Positions 3,382 through 33,733 of a DNA stretch of 64,000 nucleotides are shown piece after piece. The notes under the pieces were generated by a model. The model was not told the DNA's origin. It searched no databases and worked only from the letters and a program-made list of their open reading frames with translations. This DNA is from Pontiella desulfatans (GTDB lineage: Bacteria; Verrucomicrobiota; Kiritimatiellia; Kiritimatiellales; Pontiellaceae), in the NCBI RefSeq assembly GCF_900890425.1, contig NZ_CAAHFG010000003.1, forward strand, positions 372,001-436,000. The letters run 5' to 3'. Within the stretch, counting starts at the first letter, position 1. Each line of letters opens with the position of its first letter. A program made the translations under genes and the position numbers.

Positions 3382-3390
3382 CCTACCTTT

Positions 3391-3453
3391 TACCACGGAG
3401 GCACAGAGACACAGCGGTTGCAGCACTCCGACCCTCCGTGTCTCAGTGGTGAA
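3391..3453. repeat. Palindromic intergenic element, ACAGAGGC family
   Basis: TACCACGGAGGCACAGAGAC at the left and CTCCGTGTCTCAGTGGTGAA at the right are near reverse complements, forming a long imperfect hairpin between the PIN-like gene and the HAD gene. The right arm abuts the start of the HAD gene. Other copies of the family lie at 17300, 22881, 28321, 30555, 33741 and 33972. Confidence 0.7.
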
Positions 3454-3454
3454 G

Positions 3455-4120
3455 ATGACGCTTTCCGACCGCTATATATTCTGCGACATCGACGGTACGT
3501 TGCTGCATGCCAAAGGGGCCGGGCGCCTGGCGTTCGGTGCTGCCTTCGAGCAGGCCTACGGCGTACCCGTCGATCTGGCGCACATCAATTTTGCCGGAGC
3601 CACGGATATTCGCGTGGTCGAGCAGCTTATCCGCGAAAACGGACTTGAGCCCGACCCGGCCCGGATGGCCCGCTTTTTCGAGCTGCTGCCCGGGCATCTC
3701 GACCGCAACATGGCGGAGTTCCCGCCCACGGTTTTCCCGGGGGTGGTGCACTTCCTCGAGCGGGTTTCCGCGCACTGGAAGCTTGCCCTGGTGTCCGGGA
3801 ATATCCGGAAAACCGCCTACCTCAAGCTAAGGCATGGCGGACTGGAAGGCTTCTTCACCGATATCGGAGGTTTCGGCGACGACGACGGCGACCGCAACCG
3901 CATGGCGGCACTGGCGCTGGAGCGGGCCGGCAATCCGGAAGGATCCTTCCTGTTGGGCGACACCCCGTCCGATATCGAAGCCGCCCGGAGCAATGGTATG
4001 GTATCCGTTGCCGTTTGCAACGGCCAGTTCGACCGCGCCACGCTGGAGGCGGAACATCCCGACATGATCGTGGATTCGTTCGAGGATGCCGAACATTTGT
4101 TCCGGGCATTGGACGTATGA
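3455..4120 (+). CDS. HAD-superfamily phosphatase (phosphoglycolate phosphatase-like)
   Basis: 221 residues from the ATG at 3455; GTG codons at 3446 and 3449 lie inside the upstream palindrome and are less likely starts. HAD motif I is CDIDGTLL, motif II is LVSGN, the motif III lysine is in IRKTAYLK, and motif IV is LLGDTPSDIEAA. A C1-type cap lies between motifs I and II (about residues 20-95). This is the Gph/PGP-like branch, which removes phosphate from small phosphorylated metabolites in the cytosol; the substrate cannot be read from sequence. The stop overlaps the start of srkA (ATGA), so the two are translationally coupled. Confidence 0.85.
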   Translation: MTLSDRYIFCDIDGTLLHAKGAGRLAFGAAFEQAYGVPVDLAHINFAGATDIRVVEQLIRENGLEPDPARMARFFELLPGHLDRNMAEFPPTVFPGVVHFLERVSAHWKLALVSGNIRKTAYLKLRHGGLEGFFTDIGGFGDDDGDRNRMAALALERAGNPEGSFLLGDTPSDIEAARSNGMVSVAVCNGQFDRATLEAEHPDMIVDSFEDAEHLFRALDV

Positions 4121-21394: not shown

Positions 21395-22858
21395 TCAAAT
21401 ATATGTGTATCCGATGTCGTTGCTGTCTTGTTTGATTTCCATAAGCTTGTCGACGATCGTGTCGAAGAGCCGCTGCGCGCCGCGGTATCCCAGATGGAGG
21501 GAACGAGGCCCGCTGATCCGGTCGTGGATAGGAAACCCAGTACGGATCAGCGGGACGCCGGCTTTGCGGCTGAGGGAGAAGCCCTTGCTGTTGCCGAGCA
21601 GCAGGTCGGGCTTGAGCGTGTGCGTGGCGGCTTCGATTTCGGCGAAGTCGACGCCTTCGAGAATGGGGGTTTCGGGATCGATTTCCGGGGCAACCTCCAG
21701 AACGCATTCGCGCAGCTTGCCGCTTTTGCCGCCGGAGGCGCAAAGCACCGGCTTGAGCCCGATCTCGGCGCAGAAGGCGGCCATGCCGACGACGAAATCC
21801 TCCTCGCCGAAAATCACGACCTTCTTGCCGAAGGTGTATTTGTGCCCATCGACGTAGCAGTCGATCAGCCGCCCGCGTTCCGCCTCGTGCTGCGAGGGGG
21901 TCGGGCAGCCGGTGATCTGTTCGAGCACCTTGAAAAACTTGTCGGACTGGCGGATGCCGATCGGCAGGCCAACCCGGAACACGGCGGTCGAAAACTTTTT
22001 GTCGAGCAGCGATGCGGCGGACTGCTTGTCGGAGATGGTCGAGGCCAGTTCGATCACCGCCGAGGCCCGGCCGAGCTTGGTGATTTCGCGCACCGGGGTG
22101 CCGCCGGCCGGAATCTTGTGGTAGTCGCCCCACACCGGGCCATCGAGCGGGTCGGAATAATCCGGAACGATGGAAAAATTCATGCCGAAGTCGGTCAGGA
22201 TTTCGCGCAGGTGGCGCAGGTCGGCCGGCGATACCATGCCGGGGAAGACGCCAATGAATTTTTCGTTGGGCCCGTCGATCGCGAGCTGGTCGACGATCGC
22301 CCGCACCGCCCACTGGTAGCCGTCGGCATGGCTGCCCGCATAGCTCGGGGTCGAGGCGCGCAGGATGAAGGGCAGGTTCATCTGCTTGCGTTCCTTGGCA
22401 ATGAACTCCTTCACATACATGTCCACGTCGTCGCCGATGGTTTCGGCCAGGCAGGTGGTGGCGATGCCGATCACCTGCGGGTGGTAGCCCTCGATCACGT
22501 GCTTGAGGCCGTCGAATAGATTCTGCCGGCCGCCGAACACGACGCTCTCTTCGCCGAAGCTCGAAGAGGCAATGTCCATCGGCTCGCGGAAATGGCTGAT
22601 CATGTAGCGGCGGATGTAGGTGGCGCAGCCTTGCGATCCGTGGAGGAAGGGGAGGCAACCTTCGATTCCACGAAACGCAAGGCTGGCGCCGAGCGGAGCG
22701 CAAAGCTTGCAGGCATTCCGTGTTGCGGTGAAATTCTTGCCGGTCAACGGCTTGTCCGCCGGGGCGGGGCCGCAGCCGCATTTGGCTTTATCCGCTGCTG
22801 TGCAGGCGTTGGCCGGGCTATCGACCGGTGCACAGGTTTTTCCGCATTCGCAACTCAT
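21395..22858 (-). CDS. nifN: Nitrogenase cofactor scaffold subunit NifN, Cys-rich N-terminus
   Basis: 487 residues; the start at 22858 has GAGG six bases upstream (the longer frame reads a repeat). The NifN core starts with RNACKLCAPLGASLAFRGI, LPFLHGSQGCATYIRRYMIS, HFREPMDIASSSFGEES and VFGGRQNL, and carries the TTCLAETIGDDV segment. With NifE it forms the NifEN tetramer on which NifB-co is matured into FeMo-co. Unusual: a 40-residue N-terminal extension with six cysteines (3, 5, 9, 19, 27, 29; CECGKTC and CGCG) ahead of the conserved C50/C53 pair. Confidence 0.95.
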   Translation of the reverse strand: MSCECGKTCAPVDSPANACTAADKAKCGCGPAPADKPLTGKNFTATRNACKLCAPLGASLAFRGIEGCLPFLHGSQGCATYIRRYMISHFREPMDIASSSFGEESVVFGGRQNLFDGLKHVIEGYHPQVIGIATTCLAETIGDDVDMYVKEFIAKERKQMNLPFILRASTPSYAGSHADGYQWAVRAIVDQLAIDGPNEKFIGVFPGMVSPADLRHLREILTDFGMNFSIVPDYSDPLDGPVWGDYHKIPAGGTPVREITKLGRASAVIELASTISDKQSAASLLDKKFSTAVFRVGLPIGIRQSDKFFKVLEQITGCPTPSQHEAERGRLIDCYVDGHKYTFGKKVVIFGEEDFVVGMAAFCAEIGLKPVLCASGGKSGKLRECVLEVAPEIDPETPILEGVDFAEIEAATHTLKPDLLLGNSKGFSLSRKAGVPLIRTGFPIHDRISGPRSLHLGYRGAQRLFDTIVDKLMEIKQDSNDIGYTYI

Positions 22859-22880
22859 CTTCGGCCTCTTCCGTTGTTGA

Positions 22881-22974
22881 TTCCTCGCAGAGGCGCTGAG
22901 TTCGCTGAGGAAATACATTTTACTTTGCCCCTCTGCTGCTCTGCGTCTCGAGCGACGCAAGGAGCGGGCGAGGA
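22881..22974. repeat. Palindromic element, GCAGAGGCGCTGAG family, in the nifE-nifN spacer
   Basis: TCCTCGCAGAGGCGCTGAG and the right arm CTCTGCGTCTCGAGCGACGC, AAGGAGCGGGCGAGGA form an imperfect inverted repeat. Related words occur in the ACAGAGGC family. Confidence 0.65.
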
Positions 22975-22991
22975 ATATATGCGTGAATGGG

Positions 22992-28401: not shown

Positions 28402-29258
28402 CCGATCCCGAATTTTTAAAACGGCTTGAGACCCTGTTCCTGCTGACCCGCAAGGTGCTCGGCGGCTCGATGCGGGCCGACCGCCGCTCTACGCGCAAGG
28501 GCAGCGGGATCAACTTTGCCGACTATGCCGAATACCACTATGGCGACGACTACCGCCATGTGGACTGGAATATCTATGGTCGGCTCGAAGCGCTGGTGGT
28601 CAAGCTCTACGAACTCGAGGAGGACGTCTGCGTCCACTTCCTGCTCGACTGCAGTCCGTCGATGGATTCGAAATCGATCTTTGCCAAGCAGGTGACGGCG
28701 GCGCTGGCCTACATTGCGCTGTCGTGCCACGACCGGGTCTGCATCCATTCGGTGTCGGATCAGCTCGGCACGCTACTGCGTCCGGCGCATGGGCGCGGCA
28801 AGGTGTTCCCGATGCTGCGCGCGCTCGAAGATGCGCCGTTGGTTGGAACCACGACCGATCTATCCATTTGTGCGCGTGCCTTTCAGCAACGGGTCAAACG
28901 TCCCGGCGTCTGCGTGCTCGTTTCCGATTTCCTCGTGCCGGATGGTTATGCCGAGGCGATCAAGCTGTTGCAGTGGGGGCGGCACGATGTCTTCTGCATC
29001 CAGACGCTCGACCCCGCCGAAATGAAGTGCGACATGAAGGGCGACGTCGACCTCGAATGTTGCGAAAGTCACGAGCGCCGTAAGGTAACGATCACCGCCA
29101 CCGAGGCCGCGCGCTATGAACAGGCGATCCGCGACTGGAATGCCGACCTCAAGCAGGAGTGCGCCCGCCGTGGTGTTGGCTTCGTGCAGGCCTTTTCCGA
29201 TGTTCCGTTCGACCGCGTTGTCGAAGTCATTCTTAGAAAAGGCGGGTTGGTCGCGTGA
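28395..29258 (+). CDS. DUF58 domain protein
   Basis: 287 residues; GTG start with AGGAG seven bases upstream. The DUF58 core GDDYRHVDWNIYGR follows RADRRSTRKGSGINFADYAEY. A degenerate VWA-like region continues (VHFLLDCSPSMDSKS, then GVCVLVSDFLVPDGYAEAIKLL). DUF58 proteins always accompany MoxR ATPases and are thought to be their substrates or partners. The start overlaps the tail of the preceding frame and the stop overlaps the next start by four bases. Confidence 0.92.
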   Translation: MLTDPEFLKRLETLFLLTRKVLGGSMRADRRSTRKGSGINFADYAEYHYGDDYRHVDWNIYGRLEALVVKLYELEEDVCVHFLLDCSPSMDSKSIFAKQVTAALAYIALSCHDRVCIHSVSDQLGTLLRPAHGRGKVFPMLRALEDAPLVGTTTDLSICARAFQQRVKRPGVCVLVSDFLVPDGYAEAIKLLQWGRHDVFCIQTLDPAEMKCDMKGDVDLECCESHERRKVTITATEAARYEQAIRDWNADLKQECARRGVGFVQAFSDVPFDRVVEVILRKGGLVA

Positions 29259-31060
29259 GTTTTCTGTTGCCGCAATTTTTATGGGGCCTGCTCGGCCTGA
29301 TTCCGCTGGCGGTGGTCTACCTCATCAAGGTGCACCCCGTCCGTAAGAAGACCAGCGCATGGTTCCTGTGGCAAGGCATCTTCCAGGAACACCGCGCTGC
29401 CTCATTCCTGCAAAAGCTGCGCGACTGGCTGAGCCTGTTGCTGATGGCGCTGGCGTTCATCTTCATGGTGCTGTCGCTCGCGCAACCCGTCCTGCGCGAC
29501 GGTGCATCGGCCAGCCGCTTGGTGCTGATTGTTGACAACAGCCTGAGCATGCAGGCCGACGGGCGGCTCGACGCCGCCCAACGCGCCGCCCGCGAATGGG
29601 TGCGCTCGCTCCCGGCTGGCGGACGCGCCGCTATCTTTACGCTCTCCGGCGAACTCATTTCCGAAACGGGCTTCACCGCCAGCCGCCGCGAGCTGATGCA
29701 CGGACTCGACCGCGTCGCTGCCAACGATGTTACCTTCAATCCTTCCGCGCTCAGCCACTTTGGCCGCGACGGAGCGATGGCGGAGCAGCAACGCATTTTA
29801 CTCTTTTCCGATGGCTGTTTTGCGGGCGAGCTGCCGGAGAGCATCGAGCTGGTCAAGGTGGGCGAACCGAAGGACAACGTCGGCCTCTCGGCCTTTGACG
29901 TCCGCCGTATTCCCGGCGAAAGCAATCCGCTCGGCGTCTTCTTCCGCGTCTTTTCCGGTGCGGCCGATTCGGTCGAGGTCGATGCGGTGCTGGCGCACGG
30001 TAACGCCGACAACATTCAGCGGGTCATTCCGCTGACGCTCCAACCGGGACTCAACGATCCGGTAACTCTCACGTTGATCGACGGCGCGCCCGGCAAATGG
30101 TTCCTCGAACTGGAAATCGACGATGCGCTGTCGGCCGACAACCATGCCTTTGCATTCGTGCCGGAACCCGACCCCGTCCGCGTCGCGGTGCGCGCGCCCG
30201 AAACCCACATCTTTTGGCAACTCTGCGTCGAGTCGTTCGGCGAAGGTTTGAACGGCCTGCTGATGAGCAACGACGATCCGCACCTCGAACTCTATCGCGG
30301 CCAGGTCGCCGCAGGCTCGGCGGAGCGCCTGGCGGTCTTTGCGCCGGAGGGCGAGTCGCCGTTTTGGAAGGGCGTCTCCGGCGAAACGGAAGAGGCCGCC
30401 ATCCGCGTCGTGTTGCCAACGCATCCGCTGATGCGCTTCGCCAACCTCGACGGACTGGTCGTCAATGGCGTTCGCCAGATCGAACCGCCGGAGCAAGCCG
30501 TCGTCCTCGCCGAAACCGATTCCGGTATCCCGCTCATCTATAAAACTACAAAAACTTTCACCACAGAGGACACAGAGGCACAGAGGAATGATTCTGGAGG
30601 AACGGCCTCTGTGAACTCTGTGCCCTCTAGCGAAGCGGGTGGTGAAAAACTCCCGTCGAGCAGGACGGCATATGTGTTGAACTTCGATCCGGCGCTGAAT
30701 CACTTTTTCCTGCATCCGCAGTTTCCGGTGTTGGTCTGGTCGCTGGCATCGGAGCTGATGGAACTCGAAGGTGAACCCCCGGCTTCGTACCGCGCGGGCG
30801 GGGCCATTTTCACGCACACCGATGGCCGCGTCGGGCCGCTGACCGAATTCGGTTTCCACGAAATCGTTTCGGGCGCCGCCACGCAGACGGTGGCGTGCAG
30901 CACCGCGCCCGAGACGGAGATTGGTTTGGATAATTCAGCCCTGACAGTCGGCGATCATGTGCGTTCGACCGGATTCCCGCTTTCGGAATGGTTCCTCGCT
31001 GCCGCGCTACTATTGTTGACGCTCGAGTTTGTGCTCTATCACCGGAGGAAGGTCGGATGA
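29255..31060 (+). CDS. BatA-like VWA membrane protein with in-frame repeat insertion
   Basis: 601 residues. N-terminal Bat-type double span (FLWGLLGLIPLAVVYLIKV and LSLLLMALAFIFMVLSLAQ), then a VWA domain with the MIDAS motif DNSLSM near residue 94 and FSDGCF. A long periplasmic beta-rich part follows, and a C-terminal span (EWFLAAALLLLTLEFVLYH). Residues about 434-465 (FTTEDTEAQRNDSGG and onward) are encoded by a palindromic repeat that keeps the frame open. Probably part of a cell-envelope complex controlled by MoxR. Confidence 0.85.
   Translation: MSFLLPQFLWGLLGLIPLAVVYLIKVHPVRKKTSAWFLWQGIFQEHRAASFLQKLRDWLSLLLMALAFIFMVLSLAQPVLRDGASASRLVLIVDNSLSMQADGRLDAAQRAAREWVRSLPAGGRAAIFTLSGELISETGFTASRRELMHGLDRVAANDVTFNPSALSHFGRDGAMAEQQRILLFSDGCFAGELPESIELVKVGEPKDNVGLSAFDVRRIPGESNPLGVFFRVFSGAADSVEVDAVLAHGNADNIQRVIPLTLQPGLNDPVTLTLIDGAPGKWFLELEIDDALSADNHAFAFVPEPDPVRVAVRAPETHIFWQLCVESFGEGLNGLLMSNDDPHLELYRGQVAAGSAERLAVFAPEGESPFWKGVSGETEEAAIRVVLPTHPLMRFANLDGLVVNGVRQIEPPEQAVVLAETDSGIPLIYKTTKTFTTEDTEAQRNDSGGTASVNSVPSSEAGGEKLPSSRTAYVLNFDPALNHFFLHPQFPVLVWSLASELMELEGEPPASYRAGGAIFTHTDGRVGPLTEFGFHEIVSGAATQTVACSTAPETEIGLDNSALTVGDHVRSTGFPLSEWFLAAALLLLTLEFVLYHRRKVG
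30555..30648. repeat. Palindromic element, ACAGAGG family, inside a coding region
   Basis: TTTCACCACAGAGGACACAG, AGGCACAGAGG on the left and CCTCTGTGAACTCTGTGCCC, TCT...GGTGGTGAAAA on the right pair along most of their length. It lies wholly within the VWA gene reading frame. Confidence 0.85.
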
Positions 31061-31077
31061 TGCAACTTGGCGGCAGA

Positions 31078-31176
31078 GAAGGTAGGCAAAATGATTTAAT
31101 GCAAAATGAGGATCAATCAACACATTGGGTCGAAGCCAACATTTTGCATGAAATGATTTTGCTCCAATATTTTTGC
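31078..31176. repeat. Palindromic element GCAAAATGATTT...AAATGATTTTGC
   Basis: GGCAAAATGATTTAATGCAA, AATG on the left and CATTTTGCATGAAATGATTT, TGC on the right pair with few mismatches, between the two VWA genes. A 46-codon frame from 31057 overlaps it and is not supported as a gene. Confidence 0.8.
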
Positions 31177-31222
31177 TCGAGGAGTGATGGGGAATGACAA
31201 GTAGTGAGATTATGAGGAACCA

Positions 31223-33733
31223 ATGGAACTAATCTCTCTCCAGCCTCTTTGGTGGTTGCTGCTGCTCGTGGTGTTGGGCGTCGCGTATCGCTTTAGTTTG
31301 TCGGATCGTCCGGCGCGGTTCCGCCGTTTAGCGGTGGGCTTCCGCGCGGCGGCGATTGTGCTGGTGGTGCTGGCGCTCTGCCGTCCGTATCTGCACCGCC
31401 CATCGCGCGCCGTGCATGTGGTGCATCTGGTCGATGTCTCGGAGTCGGTCGATCTCGACGCGGGCATCGGCGCGCTCGAGCGCGTGATGGAGCTCGACGA
31501 AAAACTAAAGTCGTCCGATTCGTCGGAAACGGTGCTCTTTGGCGACGCCGTCCGCCCGATGGAACCGGAGGCCGCCAAGCTCATGCTGGAAAAGTGGCGC
31601 GACACGGTGGCGGACGACGTCTTCCGCCGCAACACGCGCATGGCCGAGGCGCTTCGCGCCGCCCGGCTCGGGTTCCCGTCAGGCAAGCTGCGCCGTCTGG
31701 TACTCTATTCCGACGGCATCCCGACGTCCGGCACGGTGGCCAACGAACTGCGCCGCATGGAAAAGGAAGGTATCGAACTTTCGTTCGAACGGCTCCAGCG
31801 CGTGCAGCATCCGGAGGCATCGGTGGTCGAGGTCGAGCCATCATCACCCGTGGTCTATGCGGGGGAGTCGCTGCGTATCAAGACGCGCGTCTCGGCCAAC
31901 CAGCCGATGAAGGCGCGGCTGCGGTTGATCAACCGCGGCGTCGTTTGCGGCGAACAGGCGGTTGATCTGGAGGAGGGCGAAAACCGCTTCGCGTTCGATA
32001 ACATTGTCATCAAGGCGGAGGATCAACCGCTCTGGCAGGTGGAACTGATTCCGGAGGAGGATCGTTTCCCGGCCAACAATATTGCGGGGTGCCGCATTGA
32101 AGTGGCCGGGCAGGTACGCGTGCTGGTGCTGCATAAGACGCCGCGCAAGATGCGTCACTTTAAGCGGGCGGTCGAAAGCCAGGGCTTCAGCGTCGAGGTG
32201 CGTACGCCGCTCGGCCTGCCGTCGTCGCTCGACAACCTGCTGGAGTTCGATGCCGTCGTGCTGGCCGATATTCCCGCCACCGACATTCCCGACCGCTCGA
32301 TGCAAAACCTACGGCGCTATGTGAACGACTTTGGCGGCGGCCTGCTGATGCTCGGCTCGGAAAACAGTTTTGGTTTGGGCGGCTACTATAAAACGCCCGT
32401 CGAAGAGGTGCTGCCGATCACCTCGCGCTTCGAGAAGGAAAAGGAGACGCCGTCGATGGCGATGGTGCTGGTGATCGATAAGTCGGGCAGCATGCAGGGC
32501 GCGCCGATCGAGCTGGCGCGCCGCGCCGCCAAGGCGACCGTCGAGCTGCTCAGCCCGCGCGACAAGATTGCCGTGATCGGTTTCGACTCGCAGCCGTTCA
32601 TTGCCTGCGACATGACGTCGGCCGCCGACATTGGCCGCATCCAGGATTCGATCGATTCGATCCATGCCAGCGGCGGCACCAGCATGTATCCGGCAATGGC
32701 CGAGGGCGACCGCATGCTGCGCTCGGCGGGCACGCGCATCCGTCATATGATATTGCTGACCGACGGCCAAAGCACCGGGGGCGACTTCGAGGGCATTGCC
32801 GAAGACATGGCGGTGTCGGGCATCACCGTTTCGTCGGTCGCGCTCGGCGGCGGCGCAGCGCGCGAGCTGCTCCAACGCATTGCGCGCATCGGCCGCGGGC
32901 GCTACTACGAAACGATGGACGCCTCCAGCGTGCCGCAGATTTTTACGAAGGAGACGATGGAGGTGTCGCGCTCCGCCATCAAGGAGGAGCCGTTTGTTCC
33001 CGTTTCGGTCGATACGATGGGCTTCCTCGATGGCATCGATTTTGACGAAGCGCCGTTCCTGCTGGGTTATGTGATGACGCGGCTGAAGTCGGCCGCGCGG
33101 CTGCACCTCGTGACCGAAAGCGGCGAGCCGCTGCTGGCCTCGAACCAAGCCGGGCTCGGCACGGGCATGGCCTTCACGTCCGACGCCACCGAGCTGTGGG
33201 CGGGCGAGTGGGTCGAGTGGGACGGCTTCGGCCCGTTCTGGGCGCAGGTGCTGCGCCGCTGTGTTCGGAAAGATCGAGGGCAGGGCATCGCCGTGCAGAC
33301 GGTCGAGGAACCCGGCGGCATCCGCCTGCTGATCGACCGCCGCGATGCCGCGCTCAAACCGCTCAGCGGAATTGGCTGGGACGGCACGGGTGCGTTCGAA
33401 ATGGGCGGAACCTCTTCGGTCGAAATCCGCGAGACGGGCTTCGGGCGCTACGAGGCGTTCCTGCCGATGAGCGAAAAGCGCAACTGCTCGCTGCATCTGG
33501 TCGACAAGGATTCCGGCGCGGCCCGCACCGTCGGCTGGCGCCGCGACTATCCCGATGAATACCGCCTGTCGAGCGACGTGCCCGAAAGCCTCGCCAACAT
33601 TCCGGCCTTTGATTCGGAAACCATTCTCGACCGCGACGGCGTGGCCTTCACCTACCGCCCGGCCTACCCGCTCTTCATCTTCCTCGCCATGGGCGCCTCC
33701 ATCCTCGGCATCCTCTTCCGCCGGGTGGGGTAG
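31223..33733 (+). CDS. VWA-domain membrane protein with GATase1-like segment
   Basis: 836 residues. Two N-terminal spans (LWWLLLLVVLGVAYRF and AVGFRAAAIVLVVLALC), then a first, MIDAS-like region (HLVDVSESVDLD) with LVLYSDGIPTSG. A GATase1-like domain sits near residues 290-390 (VRVLVLHK, FDAVVLADIPATDIP, FGGGLLMLGSENSFGLGGY). A full VWA domain follows with MIDAS VIDKSGSMQ near 418, GGTSMYPA and LLTDGQSTGGD. It ends with a C-terminal span (PLFIFLAMGASILGILF). This tandem arrangement is known from MoxR-operon Bat-like proteins. It is the last gene before the terminator at 33901. Confidence 0.85.
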   Translation: MELISLQPLWWLLLLVVLGVAYRFSLSDRPARFRRLAVGFRAAAIVLVVLALCRPYLHRPSRAVHVVHLVDVSESVDLDAGIGALERVMELDEKLKSSDSSETVLFGDAVRPMEPEAAKLMLEKWRDTVADDVFRRNTRMAEALRAARLGFPSGKLRRLVLYSDGIPTSGTVANELRRMEKEGIELSFERLQRVQHPEASVVEVEPSSPVVYAGESLRIKTRVSANQPMKARLRLINRGVVCGEQAVDLEEGENRFAFDNIVIKAEDQPLWQVELIPEEDRFPANNIAGCRIEVAGQVRVLVLHKTPRKMRHFKRAVESQGFSVEVRTPLGLPSSLDNLLEFDAVVLADIPATDIPDRSMQNLRRYVNDFGGGLLMLGSENSFGLGGYYKTPVEEVLPITSRFEKEKETPSMAMVLVIDKSGSMQGAPIELARRAAKATVELLSPRDKIAVIGFDSQPFIACDMTSAADIGRIQDSIDSIHASGGTSMYPAMAEGDRMLRSAGTRIRHMILLTDGQSTGGDFEGIAEDMAVSGITVSSVALGGGAARELLQRIARIGRGRYYETMDASSVPQIFTKETMEVSRSAIKEEPFVPVSVDTMGFLDGIDFDEAPFLLGYVMTRLKSAARLHLVTESGEPLLASNQAGLGTGMAFTSDATELWAGEWVEWDGFGPFWAQVLRRCVRKDRGQGIAVQTVEEPGGIRLLIDRRDAALKPLSGIGWDGTGAFEMGGTSSVEIRETGFGRYEAFLPMSEKRNCSLHLVDKDSGAARTVGWRRDYPDEYRLSSDVPESLANIPAFDSETILDRDGVAFTYRPAYPLFIFLAMGASILGILFRRVG

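Follow-up and report, generated by a model that had tools for sequence, protein, structure and literature searches.

A 34-residue segment of a BatA/VWA protein of Pontiella desulfatans is very probably a copy of a non-autonomous, hairpin-forming mobile repeat (MITE- or REP-like), which is dispersed across the Pontiella group and persists here in-frame as an extra protein loop. The segment lies in the 64,000-nucleotide stretch of DNA that was analysed, referred to below as the window. Sequence comparison supports the view that this dispersed repeat moved into the coding region, and similar in-frame copies were found in genes of related genomes (Table 1).

Table 1 Features of the window and in-frame copies of the element in genes of relatives. 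Window positions are counted from its first letter; loci and genomes are given for relatives.
Feature	Position or locus	Strand	Evidence
Intergenic family copy	3386..3456	+	R1 31.9 bits, E = 2e-6
NifK/N-like gene of home genome, empty form (CGCGPAPAD-KPLTGKN, site near 22753/22754)	21395..22858	-	Protein + DNA alignment
Divergent copy just upstream of NifK/N-like gene	22878..22978	+	R1 28.8 bits, E = 1.6e-5
Host gene, BatA N-terminal domain + VWA_2 domain protein, 601 aa	29255..31060	+	ORF; Pfam; orthologues
Element copy (family model R1)	30554..30649	+	cmsearch 86 bits, E = 1e-21; alignment; DNA fold
Net insertion, 102 nt = 34 codons, residues 434-467	30554..30655	+	Absent from orthologues L010, L011/L020, L012/L019 (protein + DNA comparison)
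Element core ACC..GGT	30560-30643	+	Within R1 copy
Left inverted-repeat arm	30562..30579	+	Arm search
Right inverted-repeat arm	30605..30622	+	Arm search
In-frame copy, a/b hydrolase	L138, G013		Open frame + flanking domains
In-frame copy, NifK/N-like protein	L147, G027; L165, G024		Empty orthologue aligned
In-frame copy, PglX-like adenine methylase	L149, G007		Empty orthologue aligned
In-frame copy, ComEC	L154, G006		Open frame + flanking domains
In-frame copy, PabB (antisense orientation)	L158, G027		Empty orthologues aligned
In-frame copy, radical SAM protein	L163, G014		Open frame + flanking domains
In-frame copy, CusA	L166, G013		Empty orthologues aligned
In-frame copy, unnamed protein	L212, G005		Open frame + flanking domains
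In-frame copy, SNF2-type helicase	L214, G027; also L324, G024		Empty orthologues aligned
In-frame copy, TolC-like protein, just after apparent signal peptide	L227, G006		Open frame + flanking domains

A palindromic element inside a conserved gene

The host gene is flanked by a DUF58 gene and a VWA/GATase1-like gene, and its BatA and VWA domains score above their Pfam cut-offs. An earlier note on this DNA had described a palindromic element inserted in frame within a conserved VWA gene, and several lines of evidence bear this out. The arms of the palindrome, which is imperfect, are 18 nt long and 89% complementary. Folded as single-stranded DNA, the focal copy reaches -27.4 kcal/mol, compared with -13.0 +/- 2.6 in shuffled sequences (z = -5.56), and none of 200 shuffles was equally stable. 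The covariance model of the family (R1, built from 14 copies) matches the element with 86 bits, and the 601-residue reading frame is open across the insert. The note had labelled the family by the 7-mer ACAGAGG and estimated an insert of about 31 residues free of stops. By itself, the 7-mer shows no significant excess in the window (5 occurrences against 4.6 expected, four of them within the focal element), but the element itself is well recognised by the model. Likewise, the open frame holds, but comparison with orthologues gives a slightly longer insert of 34 codons.

Among the genomes of the genus compared, three congeneric ones hold orthologues of the host gene (G001, Pontiellaceae bacterium B1224; G014; G017), 57-66% identical to the focal gene. 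A search of homologues for an empty site had been proposed, with presence of the segment in all orthologues as the contrary outcome; in both protein and DNA comparison, all three orthologues lack the insert. At the site they have a constant 9-codon linker (IYKTTK-EEQSA, IYKTSQ-EDRTV and VYKTSS-DGSTA), and the focal protein reads IYKTTK-[TFTTEDTEAQRNDSGGTASVNSVPSSEAGGEKLP]-SSRTA. Most of the 102 nt consists of the palindrome core and its flanking T/A runs, with some 6-15 nt beside them unaccounted for, and because the closest orthologues are just 57-66% identical, the exact junction is only approximate at the nucleotide level. The AlphaFold model of the focal protein, made with four sequences, has a mean pLDDT of 45, and we therefore claim no structural placement of the insert.

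Two further features of this locus are worth recording. After residue 517, the focal protein lacks ~18 residues (…GEVSTPDGEVIAF…) present in two full-length orthologues, an in-frame deletion unrelated to the palindrome. The gap between the host gene and the next gene (31060-31222) contains AT-rich, inverted-repeat-like sequence (AAAATGATTTAATGCAAAATGAGG ... CATTTTGCATGAAATGATTTTG), perhaps another repeat family.

A repeat family dispersed across the genus

In the 8.66-Mb home genome, R1 gave 145 matches at E <= 0.1 with 150 of 1788 candidates scored, so that copy numbers are approximate. These matches represent only about 85 distinct places, because the near-symmetric element often matches both strands. 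Within the genus, 21 of 28 genomes gave at least one R1 match at E <= 0.01, among them every one of the 14 good-quality genomes, and a phylum-wide sample contained matches at E <= 1e-4 in 30 of 194 genomes. Across 85 independent insertions, counted after the flanks had been de-duplicated at a simple similarity cut-off, the copies share TTTT[C/T]ACCAC...GTGGT[A/G]AAAA, and conservation stops within ~6 nt on each side. The family has the general features of MITEs: its members are short, non-coding and non-autonomous, carry terminal inverted repeats, occur in many copies and differ in presence or absence between relatives. An Rfam search of positions 29000-32000 returned no match, and a literature search with the repeat sequence returned no relevant report.

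Gene bodies are strongly depleted of copies overall, and the focal copy is the only one of about 85 in the home genome that lies mid-gene in a conserved gene. Other home-genome ORFs spanning copies were rejected by eye as gene insertions, since they look antisense or resemble leaders that precede the true start.

In-frame copies in genes of relatives

We screened about 100 further loci in relatives on both strands, discarding antisense or leader ORFs by eye, and found about ten further in-frame copies in unrelated genes. These cases support the earlier proposal that protein segments can be born from the element. Insert-free orthologues were aligned for five of these genes, and the other five (a/b hydrolase, ComEC, radical SAM protein, unnamed protein and TolC-like protein) rest on an open frame and flanking domains. 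Host genes were named from domain matches, with the SNF2-type helicase and the TolC-like protein named by eye. When shared cases are counted once and the focal case is included, there are 11 in-frame events; this count leaves aside N-terminal cases in ThiH-like genes (L239, L211) and the G001 helicase (L250), which has a divergent AACACGAAGG-type palindrome.

Presence and absence at several of these genes support the family-wide mobility that the earlier note had claimed. The NifK/N-like gene in the window is an empty form, 85% identical to its G027 orthologue apart from a clean 25-codon gap, and both G027 and G024 carry the element at this site. The inserts of these two genomes differ (ESTEEHR vs AGTAEHR), with the rest of the protein 96% identical. 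CusA of eight other genomes, including the home genome, reads like KHLDSADPDEPRLEVVHRAA, and that of G013 has KHLN[NLTTEDTEEHRGISSVNSVTSSEAGGKK]ENQKLETVHRAA. PabB of G001, G024, G025 and G005 lacks the 29-residue insert that G027 carries directly before FPCASITGAPK. The insert is also absent from the methylase of G016 and from four helicases (L323, the home genome's own, L326, L327 and L329). For CusA, PabB and the methylase, empty and filled forms differ in the short native loop as well, and insertion there may therefore have come with loop turnover. The same loop of the SNF2-type helicase carries palindrome-derived segments in three species, in two sequence variants (L214 in G027, L324 in G024 and L250 in G001); judging from these sequences, the loop may be either a hot spot or the site of one old insertion that has strongly diverged.

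Several side observations concern these genes. The divergent palindrome at 22878-22978 adjoins, on the upstream side, the same NifK/N-like gene whose orthologues in two relatives hold an internal copy. Besides the palindrome, the radical SAM protein and the methylase contain further repeat-like segments (KLETGNLKLETGNLK... and SSASICGSDL...SLASIRGSNL, respectively), and these genes may therefore tolerate several kinds of repeat-derived peptide. An ABC-transporter ORF in G011 (L233) may begin inside an element copy (MRIPSMTSSEAGGEKLLVVHDLNVVYG), and the element could therefore supply a start codon.

Ends of the element and possible mobilisation

The target duplication that the earlier note expected did not appear as a family-wide feature: direct repeats of 5-9 nt flanking the 85 independent copies show no excess over mismatched flank pairs, which leaves room for a 2-nt duplication. 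The focal palindrome is flanked by a 7-nt direct repeat, AAAAACT, the spacing of which does not equal the 102-nt net insertion. AAAAACT was set aside as a target-site duplication, as the 85 copies give no family-wide duplication.

REP/REPIN and IS200/IS605-like elements move as single-stranded hairpins, mobilised in trans by a Y1 enzyme. In the home genome there are 19 Y1_Tnp matches, and no R1 copy was found within ~1.5 kb of these genes; in relatives, one weak R1 match was found around 27 Y1 genes. Three genomes (G002, G003 and G020) have Y1 genes and no detected copies. Apart from that weak match, the arrangement that marks REP/RAYT systems, with copies flanking a Y1 transposase gene, was seen in neither the home genome nor the relatives. 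The hairpin form, the defined ends and the absent target duplications resemble REP/REPIN or IS200/IS605-like movement, and we infer a link by this analogy. A related movement can be seen in the home genome, where a composite unit of ~190 nt (CTAGCGCGGCATAGCCGC...GGATAGTAGT) contains one palindrome of the focal family. Five copies of another palindromic repeat carry this unit at one identical nucleotide position, GAGGAC^ACGGAGG (L075, L078, L064, L070 and L073, the last with a partial second unit in tandem), and empty copies of the target palindrome coexist in the genome (L071, L074 and L080). The composite resembles a REP-like unit with palindromes as its target.

Instead of transposing by defined ends, the element might spread at hairpins through recombination or through copying templated by repair, with short stretches of loop sequence being replaced. 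Such a process would fit some coding cases (CusA, PabB and the methylase) in which native loops are replaced or have diverged, as well as the absence of a target duplication and of a linked transposase gene. However, conservation stops near the same positions in the 85 independent copies, which suggests defined ends, and the related composite unit recurs at one position of another palindrome. We consider spread by recombination unlikely.

Reading frame of the in-frame copies

Nine of the 11 in-frame copies read the TTC-ACC-ACA-GAG frame (FTTEDTEEHR...SSEAGG). In the non-coding comparison, the same frame (+0) accounts for 45 of 260 open frames (17%) in 73 independent copies. This bias has a binomial probability of 5e-6 (0.004 with plus-strand frames only); these values serve as a guide, because copies were treated as independent and classified by eye. 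The core length is divisible by three in 8 of the 11 in-frame copies vs 27 of the 73 non-coding ones.

The simplest reading of this bias is survivorship: most gene hits would have been lost, and the remaining ones encode a tolerated loop peptide. Alternatively, the element itself may have been shaped for translation, with one orientation and frame encoding a tolerated hydrophilic peptide that has repeatedly given loops to unrelated proteins genus-wide, including one helicase loop with two palindromic variants in different species. The frame is not preserved in non-coding copies; this speaks against the element having adapted in this way, and we regard this idea as quite doubtful. Still less probable, in our view, is that the inserts were selected for a function beyond mere tolerance, such as a new binding loop or regulation by an mRNA hairpin. 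The strong preference for one frame and the palindromic segments in the same helicase loop of three genomes, in two variants, would agree with selection; however, the bias is equally explained by survivorship, the host genes are functionally unrelated, and the shared NifK/N-like insert differs between G027 and G024 despite the similarity of the remaining protein.

Discussion

We propose that the repeat inserts without detectable target-site duplication and mostly between genes, possibly with a transposase supplied in trans that moves it as single-stranded hairpin DNA. Only rarely would it enter a gene, at a position in a loop able to accommodate it. Copies would persist in genes where their length and frame leave the host ORF uninterrupted, and most of these share one orientation and a single hydrophilic frame (FTTE-DTEEHR...SSEAGG). 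The insert is predicted to become an extra loop of about 25-34 residues, comparable to Rickettsia palindromic elements; it is presumably translated, and its survival in loops may be near-neutral.

The focal gene could also be a decaying pseudogene, in which the in-frame insertion is accidental and no protein is produced. The ~18 residues missing further on are compatible with decay. However, the 601-residue frame is intact, the scores of both domains exceed their cut-offs, the genes on either side are intact and neither of the two length changes shifts the frame, and we find decay as improbable as selection of the inserts for function. We strongly disfavour the idea that the segment is old and conserved in this protein, palindromic by chance and lost in some relatives: the orthologues number only three and presence or absence by itself gives no direction, but the repeat to which the segment belongs has about 85 copies in the genome, all three orthologues share the 9-codon linker, and other genes carry the element as insertions.

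Insertion of a mobile repeat into a coding region has precedents. According to the summary in PMC10969869, Rickettsia palindromic elements (RPEs; Ogata et al. 2000, 2002) form many short palindromic copies, quoted there as about 150 bp long, that lie in-frame in unrelated genes and add an extra peptide, with orthologues lacking the segment. The Pontiella element is similarly a palindromic repeat found in-frame in conserved genes, the focal one and others, and missing from orthologues. Unlike RPEs, it belongs to another phylum and to free-living marine anaerobes with an 8.7-Mb home genome, its core is shorter (mostly 63-84 nt in gene copies), and just 1 of about 85 home-genome copies is mid-gene. 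The RPE1 profile (NCBIfam TIGR01045) does not match at the element, its best home-genome match being 16 bits elsewhere (G000:C4:903727) against a cut-off of 30 bits, and no RPE model is among the matches of five host proteins.

Intragenic GTAG/CGTC REP super-families occur in several bacteria, including the verrucomicrobium Opitutus terrae, as hairpins mostly between genes with few in ORFs (PMC3733652). The Pontiella hairpins share this distribution and also form inserts without evident function, and O. terrae is of the same phylum. However, the Pontiella element is a longer single hairpin, and no linked REP-associated tyrosine transposase was found. The GTAG/CGTC tag is absent from the ends of the 85 independent copies (TTTT..AAAA), and the one GTAG-containing sequence seen belongs to the larger composite unit.

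Bacterial MITEs (RUP, Correia/NEMIS, ERIC and others) are short, non-autonomous inverted-repeat elements with high copy number and sometimes in-frame fusions (PMC10969869). All of these properties are shared by the Pontiella element. Target duplications are a common feature of MITEs that descend from DDE insertion sequences; the Pontiella element differs from these in having no family-wide duplication, and no parent insertion sequence was identified. Because it shows no RPE1 match, no tag and no linked Y1 transposase, we place it in neither RPE1 nor the GTAG/CGTC REPs and class it as a new family within an already known kind.

Cultured Pontiella strains exist (PMC7356697, PMC10880615). Together with empty and filled orthologues, they make the origin of protein segments from selfish DNA testable, and the same material could separate survivorship from adaptation of the element as the source of the frame bias. 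Rickettsia, which are obligate intracellular bacteria, provide the best-known in-frame palindromic insertions; here, insertions of this kind occur in free-living anaerobes with genomes of up to 8.7 Mb.
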